From the IMG/VR virus record IMGVR_UViG_3300037587_000418, positions 1 to 24,451 of that record: a stretch of 24,451 bases of DNA, one strand, 5' to 3'. The notes beneath the pieces were generated by a model. That model saw only the letters and a program-made list of their open reading frames with translations. It did no database searches and was not told where the DNA came from. The DNA is from a virus. Position 1 is the first letter of the stretch. Every line of letters begins with the position of its first letter. The position numbers and the translations under genes were made by a program. Below are positions 5,495 to 16,134 of this stretch, piece by piece.

Positions 5495-5830
5495 TTAATC
5501 CTTACCTTTTGATATATCAGCGGCTAGCCCGTTGGCCCACTTAGCGATAGCTTCTGGTAATCGCGGCATGCTCGGCATATCCAGTACTTGCTGGGCTAAA
5601 TCTAGCGTCTCAGTGGCGAACTCAACGCTGGCTGCTCCAGGGCTACCTGCCCACCACCACTTACCATGAATCGAGTGTATCGGCTCGGGATCGGTGACAA
5701 GTACAGGAACCTTCCCAGTGCAGCCTGTTAAAATCTCGCTTATGTCGTCTGGGATGTACGTGTCTCCATCTTCAGCGGCATGAATCGCAGCACAGAGAAC
5801 GTCGCCGTTTTTCCTAATTCGTAGTGACAT
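5495..5830 (-). CDS. Hypothetical phage protein upstream of terL
   Basis: The product has 111 residues from ATG at 5830. A GTG at 5833 is also in frame, but AGGAGG (5842-5837) is ideally spaced for the ATG. The middle carries GKWWWAGSPG, followed by a helical C-terminal half. It shares one base with the stop of the preceding gene (TGATG) and ends one base before the terL start. No family was recognised. Confidence 0.7.
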   Translation of the reverse strand: MSLRIRKNGDVLCAAIHAAEDGDTYIPDDISEILTGCTGKVPVLVTDPEPIHSIHGKWWWAGSPGAASVEFATETLDLAQQVLDMPSMPRLPEAIAKWANGLAADISKGKD

Positions 5831-6069: not shown

Positions 6070-6812
6070 CACATAATATCTCTAGGGGTGACTGCCTTGG
6101 CGATGCCGCCTCGGGCCTTGGCCTGATCCTTGGCTGCGGTGTCCATCTGGCTGGCGAGGCGTCGGACCCGGGCGGCCTGAGACTCGATAGAGCTTGTGGC
6201 CTTGTCGTTCTCGCCGTACTCGTGGTCCATCTTGTTCATCTCCTGCACGGCGCCGAACGCAACCTTGGGGTCCGCCAGGCCATAGACCGCCGGTGCGACC
6301 TCCTCTCCATGCTCGTCGAGCTGCGCCGCCTCCATTATCTTGGACTGCATGCCGTAGGCCACGAGTTCCTTAAGTATACCTCGCTTACCATCGCCATCGA
6401 CCCGGAGCCGGTCGGCTAGCTGCTGGAGGTGTCCCTTATCTGACATCACCAGTTCTTCAATATGCTTGTGTGTTATCGCCGCGAGTGAGGTCTTCTCCAT
6501 GATCTGCCTGATCAGGACCGAACGGGCTGAGTCAGTCTCCTGTCGGCACACCACCCCAAAATAAAAAGCAGTCATCGCTGGGGGTGTCATCATCGCCACT
6601 GATGTGTTGTAGCCGGTGGCGCCCGTCGCCTTGTGGAAGTCCTTGAACGTAGTGCTGGTCAGCAGCGCCTTGACGGTCGACTTATCTGCGATGTCCAGGC
6701 TGGCCCACTGCGTGTTGAAGTCCTTCATCGTCGGCATGTGCGACCGGTCGATGTTGAGAGCATCAAGATCGATGTAGTCGATGATGGGCCGGGTGGGTTT
6801 GAAGGCTGTCAT
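6069..6812 (-). CDS. Possible terminase small subunit
   Basis: The 247-residue product is mostly alpha-helical in appearance, with a charged C-terminal quarter (residues about 195-240) rich in Arg, Lys, Ala and Gln that may form a coiled coil. It lies two small genes upstream of terL in the same operon, where many phages encode the small terminase that recognises DNA and regulates TerL. No helix-turn-helix could be identified with certainty, so the call is by position and size only. The start overlaps the upstream stop by one base (TAATG at 6814-6810). An unrelated head protein is the main alternative. Confidence 0.4.
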   Translation of the reverse strand: MTAFKPTRPIIDYIDLDALNIDRSHMPTMKDFNTQWASLDIADKSTVKALLTSTTFKDFHKATGATGYNTSVAMMTPPAMTAFYFGVVCRQETDSARSVLIRQIMEKTSLAAITHKHIEELVMSDKGHLQQLADRLRVDGDGKRGILKELVAYGMQSKIMEAAQLDEHGEEVAPAVYGLADPKVAFGAVQEMNKMDHEYGENDKATSSIESQAARVRRLASQMDTAAKDQAKARGGIAKAVTPRDIM

Positions 6813-7450
6813 TATTTAAGCATGTCCGCTCGCAGGTGGATGCGAAGATCCATAATATCACGCTCCAAGATCCTCAGCCCGGCGAGCGCTGTGACTGCGT
6901 GGTTGTCGACGTTGAACGCAGTGCATGGGTTACCATCACCATTGACAGCTACGTACGCCAGATCCTGGAACTCACCAGACTTAGCTCTACGCAGCGCCTC
7001 CTCCAGGATCTCCACGACGGTCTCGTTGATTTTAGGCTCTGTAGGTCTAGGCTCGATTACTGAGAGTTTTGGAGCGCTGATTGCACTGTCGCTAACACCA
7101 AGTTCTTCGATGCTTGATCCTGACTTCGCGTAAGTTACGTTAGGCTTGATGGCAACGCCGAAATCTGCTGCGTTGCCGATCGAGGATCTGAGGGTGAACG
7201 CGTCGTTGAAGTTGCTCACTGTGAGCACTGAGTACTCCTTATCGTTGAGGATGAGCATATAAGCTCGCTTAGCCATGTCGAACGTGGGTGCGAAGACGTC
7301 ACCGACGATGTGGTAGTCGTCACCTCCCTCAATACGTACATGCACCAGTGGGACGCAGGCAAGTTCGTAGCCTGGTGGCTTCCCCACTTTTATAATTTTA
7401 GCTGCTTCAACTTCACGCCCTTCATAGTCAACGTACGTTTGCATCGTCAT
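6812..7450 (-). CDS. Hypothetical phage protein
   Basis: This 212-residue protein has a beta-rich N-terminal half (residues 1-110, with GGDDYHIVGDVFAPTF) and a helical C-terminal half (140-212). No family was recognised. AGGA eight bases before ATG at 7450 supports that start; a second ATG at 7444 is in frame. The start overlaps the upstream stop (ATGA). The larger size next to a possible TerS suggests an operon-proximal accessory protein rather than a core virion part, but this is inference. Confidence 0.75.
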   Translation of the reverse strand: MTMQTYVDYEGREVEAAKIIKVGKPPGYELACVPLVHVRIEGGDDYHIVGDVFAPTFDMAKRAYMLILNDKEYSVLTVSNFNDAFTLRSSIGNAADFGVAIKPNVTYAKSGSSIEELGVSDSAISAPKLSVIEPRPTEPKINETVVEILEEALRRAKSGEFQDLAYVAVNGDGNPCTAFNVDNHAVTALAGLRILERDIMDLRIHLRADMLK

Positions 7451-10140: not shown

Positions 10141-10416
10141 ATGAGGGACTATAAGCTGAACACTGGCAAGGTAGACGTCTGCTGGATCTTAAGAACTTCA
10201 ATCATGCGCAACCTGGCGCACTTACCAGACACGCTAATCGACACACGTGGTAGAATTGAGTGGATTTATCACCAGTGTCTAGTCGATATGCGTGGCCATG
10301 ATTGGAGCAAGTTAAACAAAATCAAAAGCTGGCTGTGCTGGTCAGTATTCTGGTTGCTATTCATCGCTGCAGCAGTGGGCGCTGGGTGGCTCCAGAGCTA
10401 CGCCAACAGCCTGTAA
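10141..10416 (+). CDS. Small tail-anchored membrane protein
   Basis: This 91-residue protein has a soluble N-terminal part (1-60) and one strongly hydrophobic segment near the C-terminus (about 65-85, CWSVFWLLFIAAAVGAGWL), suggesting a C-terminal membrane anchor with the N-terminus in the cytoplasm. AGGAG at 10127-10131 precedes ATG by nine bases. It is flanked on both sides by copies of the 44-nt hairpin, the second beginning directly after its TAA. No family was recognised. Confidence 0.7.
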   Translation: MRDYKLNTGKVDVCWILRTSIMRNLAHLPDTLIDTRGRIEWIYHQCLVDMRGHDWSKLNKIKSWLCWSVFWLLFIAAAVGAGWLQSYANSL

Positions 10417-10460
10417 GTATGCCGCCTGATCATTCCAACGAGTGACCAGGCACGGGACAC
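10417..10460 (+). repeat. Post-stop 44-nt hairpin element, copy 2
   Basis: This copy begins directly after the TAA of the upstream gene and has the same fold and CAAC loop. The final bases are GGGACAC instead of GGGATAC, which weakens the basal pairs. The 16-bp-stem RNA element starts two bases after it. Confidence 0.8.
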
Positions 10461-10461
10461 A

Positions 10462-10603
10462 GTGCGTTTATCTGTGGAGGGTTCGATTCCCTCATGCTGT
10501 GTACGGTGGCAGGGTTCGAGTCCTTGCAGGCGAGTGGGGTAGTGGTTGCCCAGCCGATAGAAACCAGGGTTTAGCCGGAAACAGCGCCCACAGATAAACG
10601 CAC
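10462..10603 (+). ncRNA. Candidate structured RNA with two tRNA T-arm-like hairpins
   Basis: The ends GTGCGTTTATCTGTGG (10462-10477) and CCACAGATAAACGCAC (10588-10603) are a perfect 16-bp inverted repeat closing 110 bases. Inside are two hairpins with canonical T-loop sequences: AGGG-TTCGATT-CCCT (10478-10492) and GCAGGG-TTCGAGT-CCTTGC (10509-10527). A second helix, GCTGT (10496-10500) with ACAGC (10581-10585), extended by CGG/CCG (10504-10506 with 10575-10577), encloses the second T-arm and a GC-rich part resembling a D-arm (GGGGTAGTGGTTGCCC). No complete tRNA cloverleaf can be drawn in either order. No credible coding frame uses this stretch. The element lies between hairpin copy 2 and the next gene's leader, so it reads as an inserted RNA cassette. 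Function unknown; a tRNA mimic or a decayed tRNA cluster are alternatives. Confidence 0.6.
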
Positions 10604-10611
10604 CGACCATA

Positions 10612-10633
10612 AACTATTGGAGTTCAGATCATG
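10612..10633 (+). repeat. ATTGGAG leader, copy 2
   Basis: AACTATTGGAGTTCAGATC precedes the ATG at 10631. It differs from copy 1 at only a few positions after GGAG. Confidence 0.65.
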
Positions 10634-11113
10634 GAATACCCACTATTTTACAAGAAAGCTATGCAAGCATGTCCTAACGCTCGTTATGTTGGAGGCACAT
10701 CCAAGCACCTTTGCGAGTGCCAGGACCCTAAGACTTGCAACGGCGTAGCACTGCAGCAAAAACGCCAACAGCAGGTTGATGCTCTGCTTGATGCTGGGAT
10801 TAACTACTGCCGCGCGGAGTACATGGCCAAGGACGTAAGCTACGCAGATTATTATGGACAGTTTGGCGCTAAGTGCATGCGCTCCGTAGTTTCACACATT
10901 GGTGTAATGCCATTGCGGCGTAGCACAGACGAGCACCTTAACGATATCCCCTTGAGCCGCTGGGATAGTACCCGTATCTCACCTGAAATTATGCGGCTAG
11001 TAGCTTACTCAAATGCGAGCTGTACGCAAGGGTATGAGGCGGGTTACTCGTTGTCTGATACCGTCTGCGTTGCAAAGGCGGCTGCAAGACTTTGGAAGGA
11101 GTCGGACCAGTGA
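10631..11113 (+). CDS. Cysteine-rich hypothetical phage protein
   Basis: This 160-residue protein has eight cysteines, four of them early (residues 14, 28, 30 and 36, as in HLCECQDPKTC), plus 60, 82, 131 and 146. The early group could bind a metal ion, although spacing does not match a zinc finger that I recognise. The start follows the ATTGGAG leader. Its TGA overlaps the GTG of the next gene. No family was recognised. Confidence 0.7.
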   Translation: MEYPLFYKKAMQACPNARYVGGTSKHLCECQDPKTCNGVALQQKRQQQVDALLDAGINYCRAEYMAKDVSYADYYGQFGAKCMRSVVSHIGVMPLRRSTDEHLNDIPLSRWDSTRISPEIMRLVAYSNASCTQGYEAGYSLSDTVCVAKAAARLWKESDQ

Positions 11114-11292: not shown

Positions 11293-11343
11293 GTACCGCA
11301 CCGGCTGCGCCTTGATTACCAGGGTGCAGTTGCGGAGCGCTAC
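11293..11343 (+). other. Post-stop hairpin of a different sequence
   Basis: Directly after a TAA, CTGCGCCTTG (11305-11314) and CAGGGTGCAG (11320-11329) pair over ten positions with two G-U pairs around ATTAC. An outer helix, CCGCA (11296-11300) with TGCGG (11331-11335), and GTA/TAC at the ends extend it. It copies the position and overall plan of the 44-nt element but not its sequence. No T-run follows. Confidence 0.6.
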
Positions 11344-11377
11344 CCGCTCAAATCAGCGCCGCGTGCGCGAAAATAGA

Positions 11378-14658: not shown

Positions 14659-15040
14659 TTACATCTGGATGCTCGACGATGGCTGTGTCCGAGGATGCAT
14701 GAGCTGTCTATCCGAAGTCCCGCTGCGTGAGTTCAGCACGCCGCATGGGGAACAGCGACCAGGATGCACTGATGGTAAGCAGCTCTTATGTGAGCTGTGT
14801 GCGGACTCTGCCATTTCAGCCATGACCTTATGGGAGCATAACCGTGAGTACCATCAGATGGCCAGGGCGACCGCACAAGCCGCGAACTTCACGGTCAAGA
14901 AGCTGGGCGGGTTCAAGGGCGTCAAGTCGAACTGCCCGGACTGCAGTGGCGCCGGTGAGATGGAGTTCGTCGAGGGATATGACGATCAGCAGGCATTAGT
15001 ATCAATACCGTGCGAGACATGTAAAGGAGTAAACCTATGA
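14651..15040 (+). CDS. Zinc-ribbon protein with DnaJ-like cysteine repeats
   Basis: This 129-residue protein has four CxxC pairs: CMSC (16-19), CELC (47-50), CPDCSGAG (95-102) and CETCKG (121-126). The last two match the CxxCxGxG repeats of the DnaJ zinc-binding region and probably form one zinc site; the first two may form another. AGGAG seven bases upstream selects ATG 14651 over the GTG at 14648. Its stop overlaps the rtcB start (ATGA), so the two proteins are made together, which hints at a link to RNA handling. That link is inference. Confidence 0.7.
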   Translation: MTDYIWMLDDGCVRGCMSCLSEVPLREFSTPHGEQRPGCTDGKQLLCELCADSAISAMTLWEHNREYHQMARATAQAANFTVKKLGGFKGVKSNCPDCSGAGEMEFVEGYDDQQALVSIPCETCKGVNL

Positions 15041-16134
15041 AGCAAACTAAAATTTACGCTGAGCATCTAGAGCAGACAGCACTGGATCAGTTCAACAGTG
15101 CGATGGAGCAAGACTTCGCGGTTAAAGGTGCGCTGATGCCTGACGCCCACACCGGCTACACCTTGCCGATAGGTGCAGTGGTAGCTACTGACGGTGTGAT
15201 CGTGCCCTCATGGGTCGGCTACGACATCGGTTGTGGTATGTGTGCAGTGCAGACGACGTTCAACGTCGATGAGATCAAGTACGCGAGCAAGCGTATTTTC
15301 GATGAGATATATCGTCGAGTGCCGGTCGGGTTCCACGTCAACGACAAGCCGATTGAGTGTCACCTCGATCCCGACGACCTGACTGAGCTTGGGCGTAAGG
15401 CGTTCGACGGTAGGAAAGGATTCCGCGCGCTGGGTACCCTCGGCGGCGGCAACCACTTCATCGAGATTGGATACGACAAGGCTGACGTAGTCTGGATCAT
15501 CATTCACTCAGGTTCGCGCGGTGTCGGTCACGGTGTCGCTACTGAATACATGCGGCTGGCATCAGGCACCGGCAAGGTCAAGGAGGGACACTTCGGACTG
15601 GACGTTAAGAGCGATGCCGGCATGTGCTACATCCGCGATCTGAACTTGGCACTGGCGTACGCACTGACTAATCGCCAGGAGATGCTGCACCGGGTCCAGG
15701 CTGCCATGACTAACTATTGCACCGGTGAGATTCTATGGGCCTCACTGATCAACCGGAATCATAACCACGCCGAAGAACGTGATGGTCTGTGGATTCACCG
15801 CAAGGGCGCGACACACGCCGAAGCGGGGATGATGGGGGTGATACCCGGCAACATGAGGGATGGGACATTCATCGTGCGTGGCAAGGGCAACCCTGATGCT
15901 CTGTGGTCCAGCTCCCATGGCGCTGGTCGTGTGATGGGTCGCAAGCAGGCCAAGCGTGAACTGCACACCGATGACTTCAAGGTAGCCATGCGAGGTGTGA
16001 CCGCGAAGGTATGCGACAGCACGCTGGACGAGTCGCCGATGGCATACAAGAACATCTTCGAAGTCATGGCGCTACAGGCTGATCTGGTCGATGTGGTCGC
16101 GTACATTAAGCCGATAATTAACGTCAAGGGGTAG
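15037..16134 (+). CDS. rtcB: RtcB-type RNA ligase (3'-phosphate to 5'-OH)
   Basis: RtcB joins RNA 2',3'-cyclic phosphate or 3'-phosphate ends to 5'-OH ends using GTP and Mn2+. It seals tRNA halves and repairs ribotoxin-cut RNA. All core motifs are present in 365 residues: PDAHTGYTLPIG (35-46), VGYDIGCGM (Asp63, Cys66), GTLGGGNHFIE (Asn139, His140), HSGSRG (His157), NHNH (His242), HRKGATH (254-260) and SSSHGAGR (291-298) with His294 as the residue expected to carry GMP. It ends with ESPMAYKNI and KPIINVKG, as in bacterial and archaeal RtcB. The length is slightly short compared with E. coli RtcB (about 408). AAAGGAG precedes the start. In a phage it may counter tRNA-cutting host defences or process phage RNAs. 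Confidence 0.95.
   Translation: MKQTKIYAEHLEQTALDQFNSAMEQDFAVKGALMPDAHTGYTLPIGAVVATDGVIVPSWVGYDIGCGMCAVQTTFNVDEIKYASKRIFDEIYRRVPVGFHVNDKPIECHLDPDDLTELGRKAFDGRKGFRALGTLGGGNHFIEIGYDKADVVWIIIHSGSRGVGHGVATEYMRLASGTGKVKEGHFGLDVKSDAGMCYIRDLNLALAYALTNRQEMLHRVQAAMTNYCTGEILWASLINRNHNHAEERDGLWIHRKGATHAEAGMMGVIPGNMRDGTFIVRGKGNPDALWSSSHGAGRVMGRKQAKRELHTDDFKVAMRGVTAKVCDSTLDESPMAYKNIFEVMALQADLVDVVAYIKPIINVKG

Follow-up and report, generated by a model that had tools for sequence, protein, structure and literature searches.

A twin T-arm element from an uncultured phage as a member of an apparently undescribed family of phage RNAs

Why would a phage keep two tRNA T-arms side by side in a region in which no tRNA can be found? 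The question is raised by an intergenic element at positions 10462-10603 of an uncultured phage, known from a complete virus record of 24,451 bases that was analysed over its whole length (hereafter the window) and that carries terminase, SU10-type portal and RtcB genes. An earlier note on this DNA had described a perfect 16-bp inverted repeat that closes the element, two hairpins with canonical T-loops and an additional interrupted helix, located between a conserved hairpin and the leader of the next gene. All of these were recovered: the repeat at 10462-10477/10588-10603, 17-nt T-arms at 10477-10493 and 10510-10526, the helix GCTGT/ACAGC plus CGG/CCG, and the flanking hairpin (10411-10461) and leader (10609-10633). 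Because the repeat and the first T-arm share one base, 10477, the closing helix P1 counts 15 bp if the T stem is given 5 bp. The parts, from upstream to downstream, are:

10411-10461, plus strand: repeated intergenic hairpin abutting the element upstream; a neighbour, outside the conserved domain
10462-10477, plus strand: 5' strand of P1 (GTGCGTTTATCTGTGG), perfect complement of 10588-10603
10477-10493, plus strand: T1, the first T-arm, GAGGG-TTCGATT-CCCTC; canonical T-loop in 6/6 family members, stem covaries
10496-10500, plus strand: 5' strand of P2, GCTGT, partner of 10581-10585
10501-10509, plus strand: core strand UACGGUGG, invariant in 6/6 members
10504-10506, plus strand: 5' strand of P3, CGG, within that core strand
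10509-10527, plus strand: T2, the second T-arm, GCAGGG TTCGAGT CCTTGC, 6 bp, of which 4/6 pairs covary (core T-arm of 17 nt, CAGGG-TTCGAGT-CCTTG, at 10510-10526)
10529-10555, plus strand: P4 hairpin, GGC-GAG-UGGG(loop with GG)CCCA-GCC; letters invariant except in the loop and at one bulge base
10568-10580, plus strand: core strand GGUUYAGCCGGAA, identical in 5/6 members; AGUUUGCAGCCGGACA in the sixth, L219
10575-10577, plus strand: 3' strand of P3, CCG, within that core strand
10581-10585, plus strand: 3' strand of P2, ACAGC, partner of the 5' strand
10588-10603, plus strand: 3' strand of P1, complement of 10462-10477; covariation
10609-10633, plus strand: leader of the next gene, including its ribosome-binding site; four leaders of this kind in the window
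10631-11113: next gene, 160-aa product with no assigned role
15037-16134: RtcB gene, 4.4 kb from the element

Neither the inverted repeat nor the twin T-arms is a product of chance, since among 300 order-1 simulated windows none held a 16-bp inverted repeat whose arms lay within 150 nt of each other (0/300) and none a close pair of T-arms; the simulated expectation for canonical T-arms was 0.037, counting both strands. The folding energy of the element is -61.7 kcal/mol, against a mean of -46.1 for shuffled sequences (z -3.9; 0/200 shuffles). In the single-sequence minimum-energy fold the second T-arm is broken; it is retained in the centroid fold and supported by the comparative evidence. Single-sequence folds also offer CGGUGG/CCAGCCG as a competitor of P3/P4. 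A further structured intergenic stretch of the window, 11296-11372 (-37.5 kcal/mol, z -3.0), is partly kept in the nearest phage relatives (L011/L012, also L204/L205; 87% over 52 nt). These relatives have many genes and the intergenic hairpin, present three times in the window (10065, 10411, 11742), in common with it, and in a synteny comparison they lack both the element and RtcB. Aeromonas phage 13AC503A has an orthologue of the next gene and no element.

A scan for tRNA and tmRNA, one of the checks named in the earlier note, left the window empty: ARAGORN found neither. Rfam, including RF00005 and RF00023, gave no match in the window, which also holds no tmRNA tag reading frame, and neither T-arm is closed by a D-arm or an anticodon arm in a normal or a permuted cloverleaf.

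Direct similarity searches with the element returned only T-arm matches to tRNAs. A pattern of two T-arms too close together for two tRNAs matched at least 120 viral stretches; among the matches listed, 122 of 129 places had at least one T-arm outside any ARAGORN tRNA. Many of the stretches are tRNAs in permuted or interrupted form, or RNAs of other kinds. One, L132, on an unrelated phage contig directly 3' of an integrase gene, is a true homologue (blastn, 76% over 108 nt, E 1e-13). A second pattern yielded L207, blastn with L132 yielded the Klebsiella phages BU9 and KP13-27 (L214, L215), and a scan of 84,980 genomes yielded one Acetobacteraceae contig (L219). IMG/VR was scanned with exact patterns, by which diverged members are missed. 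The covariance-model search that the earlier note had also put forward was run with a model, R1, built from three sequences (window, L132, L207); it gave three independent matches, to the held-out BU9 and KP13-27 (E 9e-18 and 1e-15) and to L219 (1e-12). Family A, as we call it, so far has six members from five lineages. No further member was seen in about 795 sampled Pseudomonadota genomes, and blastn returned nothing for the element against plasmids or for the L207 copy against plasmids and E. coli genomes. Pattern matches L206, L208-L213, L216-L218 and L220 were discarded as chance, as they lack T-arm context and most look coding. The family is absent from Rfam 15, and Rfam covariance models at gathering score matched none of the window, L132, L207, L214 and L219. 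A tRNA-Ser(CGA) called by ARAGORN within the L132 copy is treated as false, because across the family position 59 of the loop is variable and U60 is retained, as in a T-loop; T1 was probably read as an anticodon arm.

The six-member alignment was fitted to the structure and is biased towards it; within it, 94.9% of cells are paired and 15 of 34 pairs show changes on both sides. Cells with such changes number 36, against 13.4 after shuffling (0/500), and the covariation score is 0.443; shuffling lowers it to 0.132, and sliding to 0.10 at most. P1 has both-side changes in nine of its 13 modelled pairs: helices of 13-17 bp and different sequence occur in L207, the Klebsiella phages and L219, and can be read by eye (16/16 in the window, at least 13 in Klebsiella, 16/17 in L219, 14/16 including G-U in L207) although their letters are unrelated. 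By eye, L132 has no P1, and this copy, lacking it, folds no better than shuffles (z -0.1). The T1 and T2 stems both covary, and compensatory changes thus keep P1, T1 and T2 (L132 without P1). The P2 helix is suggestive from sequence, with the variants GCTGG/CCAGC in L207, GCTGC/GCAGC in L132 and GACGGG/CCCGTC in L219, and a permutation test that is not significant (12/120). Covariation is silent on the pairing of P3 and P4 because their pairs never vary. The unpaired core letters, UACGGUGG, AGUGGGGU and AGCCGGA, are nearly invariant across the family. In L219, T2 is an ordinary hairpin without a T-loop, and this sole member lacking the T2 loop also lacks the GG of GGUUYAGCC; such a joint loss is what a contact between T-loop and GG would predict, but it is a single event.

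The same fold with different stem sequences in unrelated phages therefore marks a real RNA family, and on this comparative evidence the element is a member of it, apparently undescribed. Its fold would be a self-folding domain of about 120-140 nt in which a variable long helix, P1, serves as the handle of a nearly invariant inner core. T1 would sit at the junction with P1 and, probably, P2, and the inner domain would comprise T2, P4 and the nearly invariant single strands.

The Klebsiella phages place this domain in a larger setting. In KP13-27 and BU9 it stands at the tip of a stem, GGGCACACAAC ... TTGTGGTGAA, at which HK620, IME11 and VLCpiS10a carry another, unrelated module. Modules are thus exchanged on the CACACAAC/GTTGTG stem, which is part of a larger RNA locus without annotation; the swap gives the natural borders of family A and shows it to be an exchangeable plug-in domain. 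The earlier note's idea of an independent RNA cassette is supported by this exchange and by the compensatory changes in unrelated phages. Some 60 nt before the Klebsiella copies stands a tag frame, ANEEMYLAVA*, with a tmRNA-like pseudoknot; the surrounding stretch is free of genes over about 1.07 kb, and parts of it are found again in 869 phage records. The mosaic noncoding locus itself (L215 2828-2998, about 39510-39680 of the KP13-27 record; L231 601-782 in HK620) has a tag frame of ANEEMYLAVA* or ANDDVVLMAA* with synonymous changes between phages, and no match to Rfam above cut-off.

What might such a domain do? Family A copies are free-standing in four of five lineages, are found a short way downstream of SSB and small genes (L207, L219; an RMF-like gene in L219) and also between head genes, and are followed by a different gene in every member. 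In tRNA, the T-loop normally binds the GG step of the D-loop. In family A, T1 is followed by the P2 strand after a linker of 0-2 bases (window, L132, L207, L219), and two conserved GG-bearing loops are present; for these reasons taken together, the domain would present tRNA-elbow-like surfaces. We tentatively favour, short of confidence, the reading that family A is a structured domain whose T-loops, shaped like a tRNA elbow, are shown to a factor of the host's tRNA processing or translation. It would act at the RNA level: the T-loops would probably contact the GG-bearing loops in the manner of the tRNA elbow, and the docked surface would be offered to a host partner that binds tRNA, such as the ribosome or an enzyme that matures or modifies tRNA. 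The transcript might then be processed or stabilised, or the partner engaged. The partner might be RNase P or RNase Z, an enzyme that modifies T-loops, or the ribosome; equally, the RNA might contact only itself. Of the tRNA mimic suggested in the earlier note, the T-loop stands, T-loop 1 being kept in 6/6 members, and any binding partner is putative.

Alternatively, and with less probability, the RNA could act in trans once released, as a decoy or regulator that, for example, titrates an enzyme recognising T-arms or a tRNA nuclease of anti-phage defence, or binds ribosomes. Free-standing copies would suit such a role, phages do keep stable RNAs without known function (T4 rnaC, 139 nt, has one T-arm), and the RMF-like gene before the L219 copy and the tag frame beside the Klebsiella copy hint at translation. 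However, the element lacks an anticodon loop as a target for an anticodon nuclease, and no promoter or terminator of its own was found in the window. A scan found no intrinsic terminators behind the L132 and L207 copies. Slightly less probable again is a role in cis as a riboswitch, a ribozyme or a signal for mRNA processing, in which the T-loops would do no more than stabilise the tertiary fold. Its nearly invariant unpaired letters recall ligand-binding or catalytic RNAs, CGGUGG and AGCC allow two mutually exclusive pairings, and in the window it directly precedes the next gene's leader, but the downstream genes differ in all members, the L132 copy stands directly behind an integrase gene, and no Rfam ribozyme or riboswitch family matches.

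We consider it improbable that the element derives from a larger phage RNA, tmRNA-like or ornate, of which one domain alone stands in the window. The tag frame, pseudoknot and long gene-free stretch around the Klebsiella copies invite this reading; against it, no tag frame was found near other family A members, different modules occupy that stem in other phages with the tag module, and the tmRNA D-loop motif is not seen in the element. That the element is a tRNA gene in circularly permuted or interrupted form, whose parts the phage RtcB would ligate, is very improbable: RtcB lies 4.4 kb away and permuted-looking tRNA genes exist in other viral contigs, but no D-arm or anticodon arm closes in either order, the other members lack tRNA halves and no family A match lies near 71 RtcB relatives, so that we rejected the element as an RtcB substrate. 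A tRNA-Pro(UGG) gene accompanies phage RtcB genes of the window's type in at least 12 contigs (among L133-L176), but in the window no tRNA was seen; in L185, at about 6530-6900, interrupted-tRNA pieces stand beside RtcB, flanked by a repeated motif, CGAATGTT. Least credible is an array of degraded tRNA genes, as the earlier note had also suggested from the two T-arms without complete tRNAs, since it is refuted by the compensatory changes seen between unrelated phages and by a core that is invariant among them and unlike tRNA.

Among known RNAs, the acceptor/T half of tRNA is the nearest likeness: T1 is a canonical T-arm with a helix strand directly after it, as in acceptor/T stacking, and T1 stacked on P2 would resemble that half in the permuted order of a circularly permuted tRNA. 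The element runs from T-arm to a P2 3'-like strand, the inner domain and the P2 partner; it differs from tRNA in having no D-arm, anticodon arm or CCA, and in the long P1 where the D and anticodon arms would be. T4 rnaC and rnaD (species 1 and 2) are likewise phage RNAs of about 140 nt with unassigned function, and rnaC has a tRNA T-arm, but there is one T-arm only and no core in common; with no R1 match, they were rejected as homologues. With tmRNA the element shares a T-arm and a long helix, and the Klebsiella copies a neighbouring tmRNA-like tag frame, whereas the window has no Rfam tmRNA match, tag or D-loop motif. GOLLD and ROOL (PMC12286853) are also structured phage RNAs without known function, but no Rfam family matches the element and the family A unit is only about 130 nt. 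No description was found in the literature on permuted tRNA or tRNA-mimic phage RNAs.

A second and separate family of twin-T-arm RNAs, family B, was found in L037, L077, L115, L116, L124, L118, L086, L064 and Touem01/L228 (about 800-915). It resembles family A in its intergenic position, in two T-arms 15-40 nt apart and, in several cases, in AGCCGG(G)AA near the 3' end; unlike family A, it has the core UCGCUGGCCGAGRUUAGGUAAG between the arms, and it gives no significant R1 match, so that the resemblance is one of motifs only. In L118 and L124 it lies close behind a gene with an SSB-like protein end (DDDIPF/DDEIPF). On the reverse strand of L054, at about 5505-5620, an apparent circularly permuted tRNA-Asn(GUU), its 3' half before its 5' half, lies inside a viral array of 23 tRNAs. 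Viral tRNA genes in L075, L059, L040, L042 and L067 have short inserts near the anticodon with an extra T-arm, and L057, L058, L063, L112 and L126 carry tRNA-like elements with a 7-12-bp closing stem, two small hairpins and two T-arms and no evident anticodon loop. It is conceivable, if rather unlikely, that phages carry an undescribed class of exchangeable paired-T-arm RNA domains (A, B and others) that would engage the host's tRNA-handling or ribosome machinery by double tRNA-elbow mimicry.

A covariation-supported family with two T-arms and no tRNA, present in very different phages, offers a handle on tRNA mimicry by phages. Moreover, as members of family A reside in cultured Klebsiella phages, experiments are possible at once.
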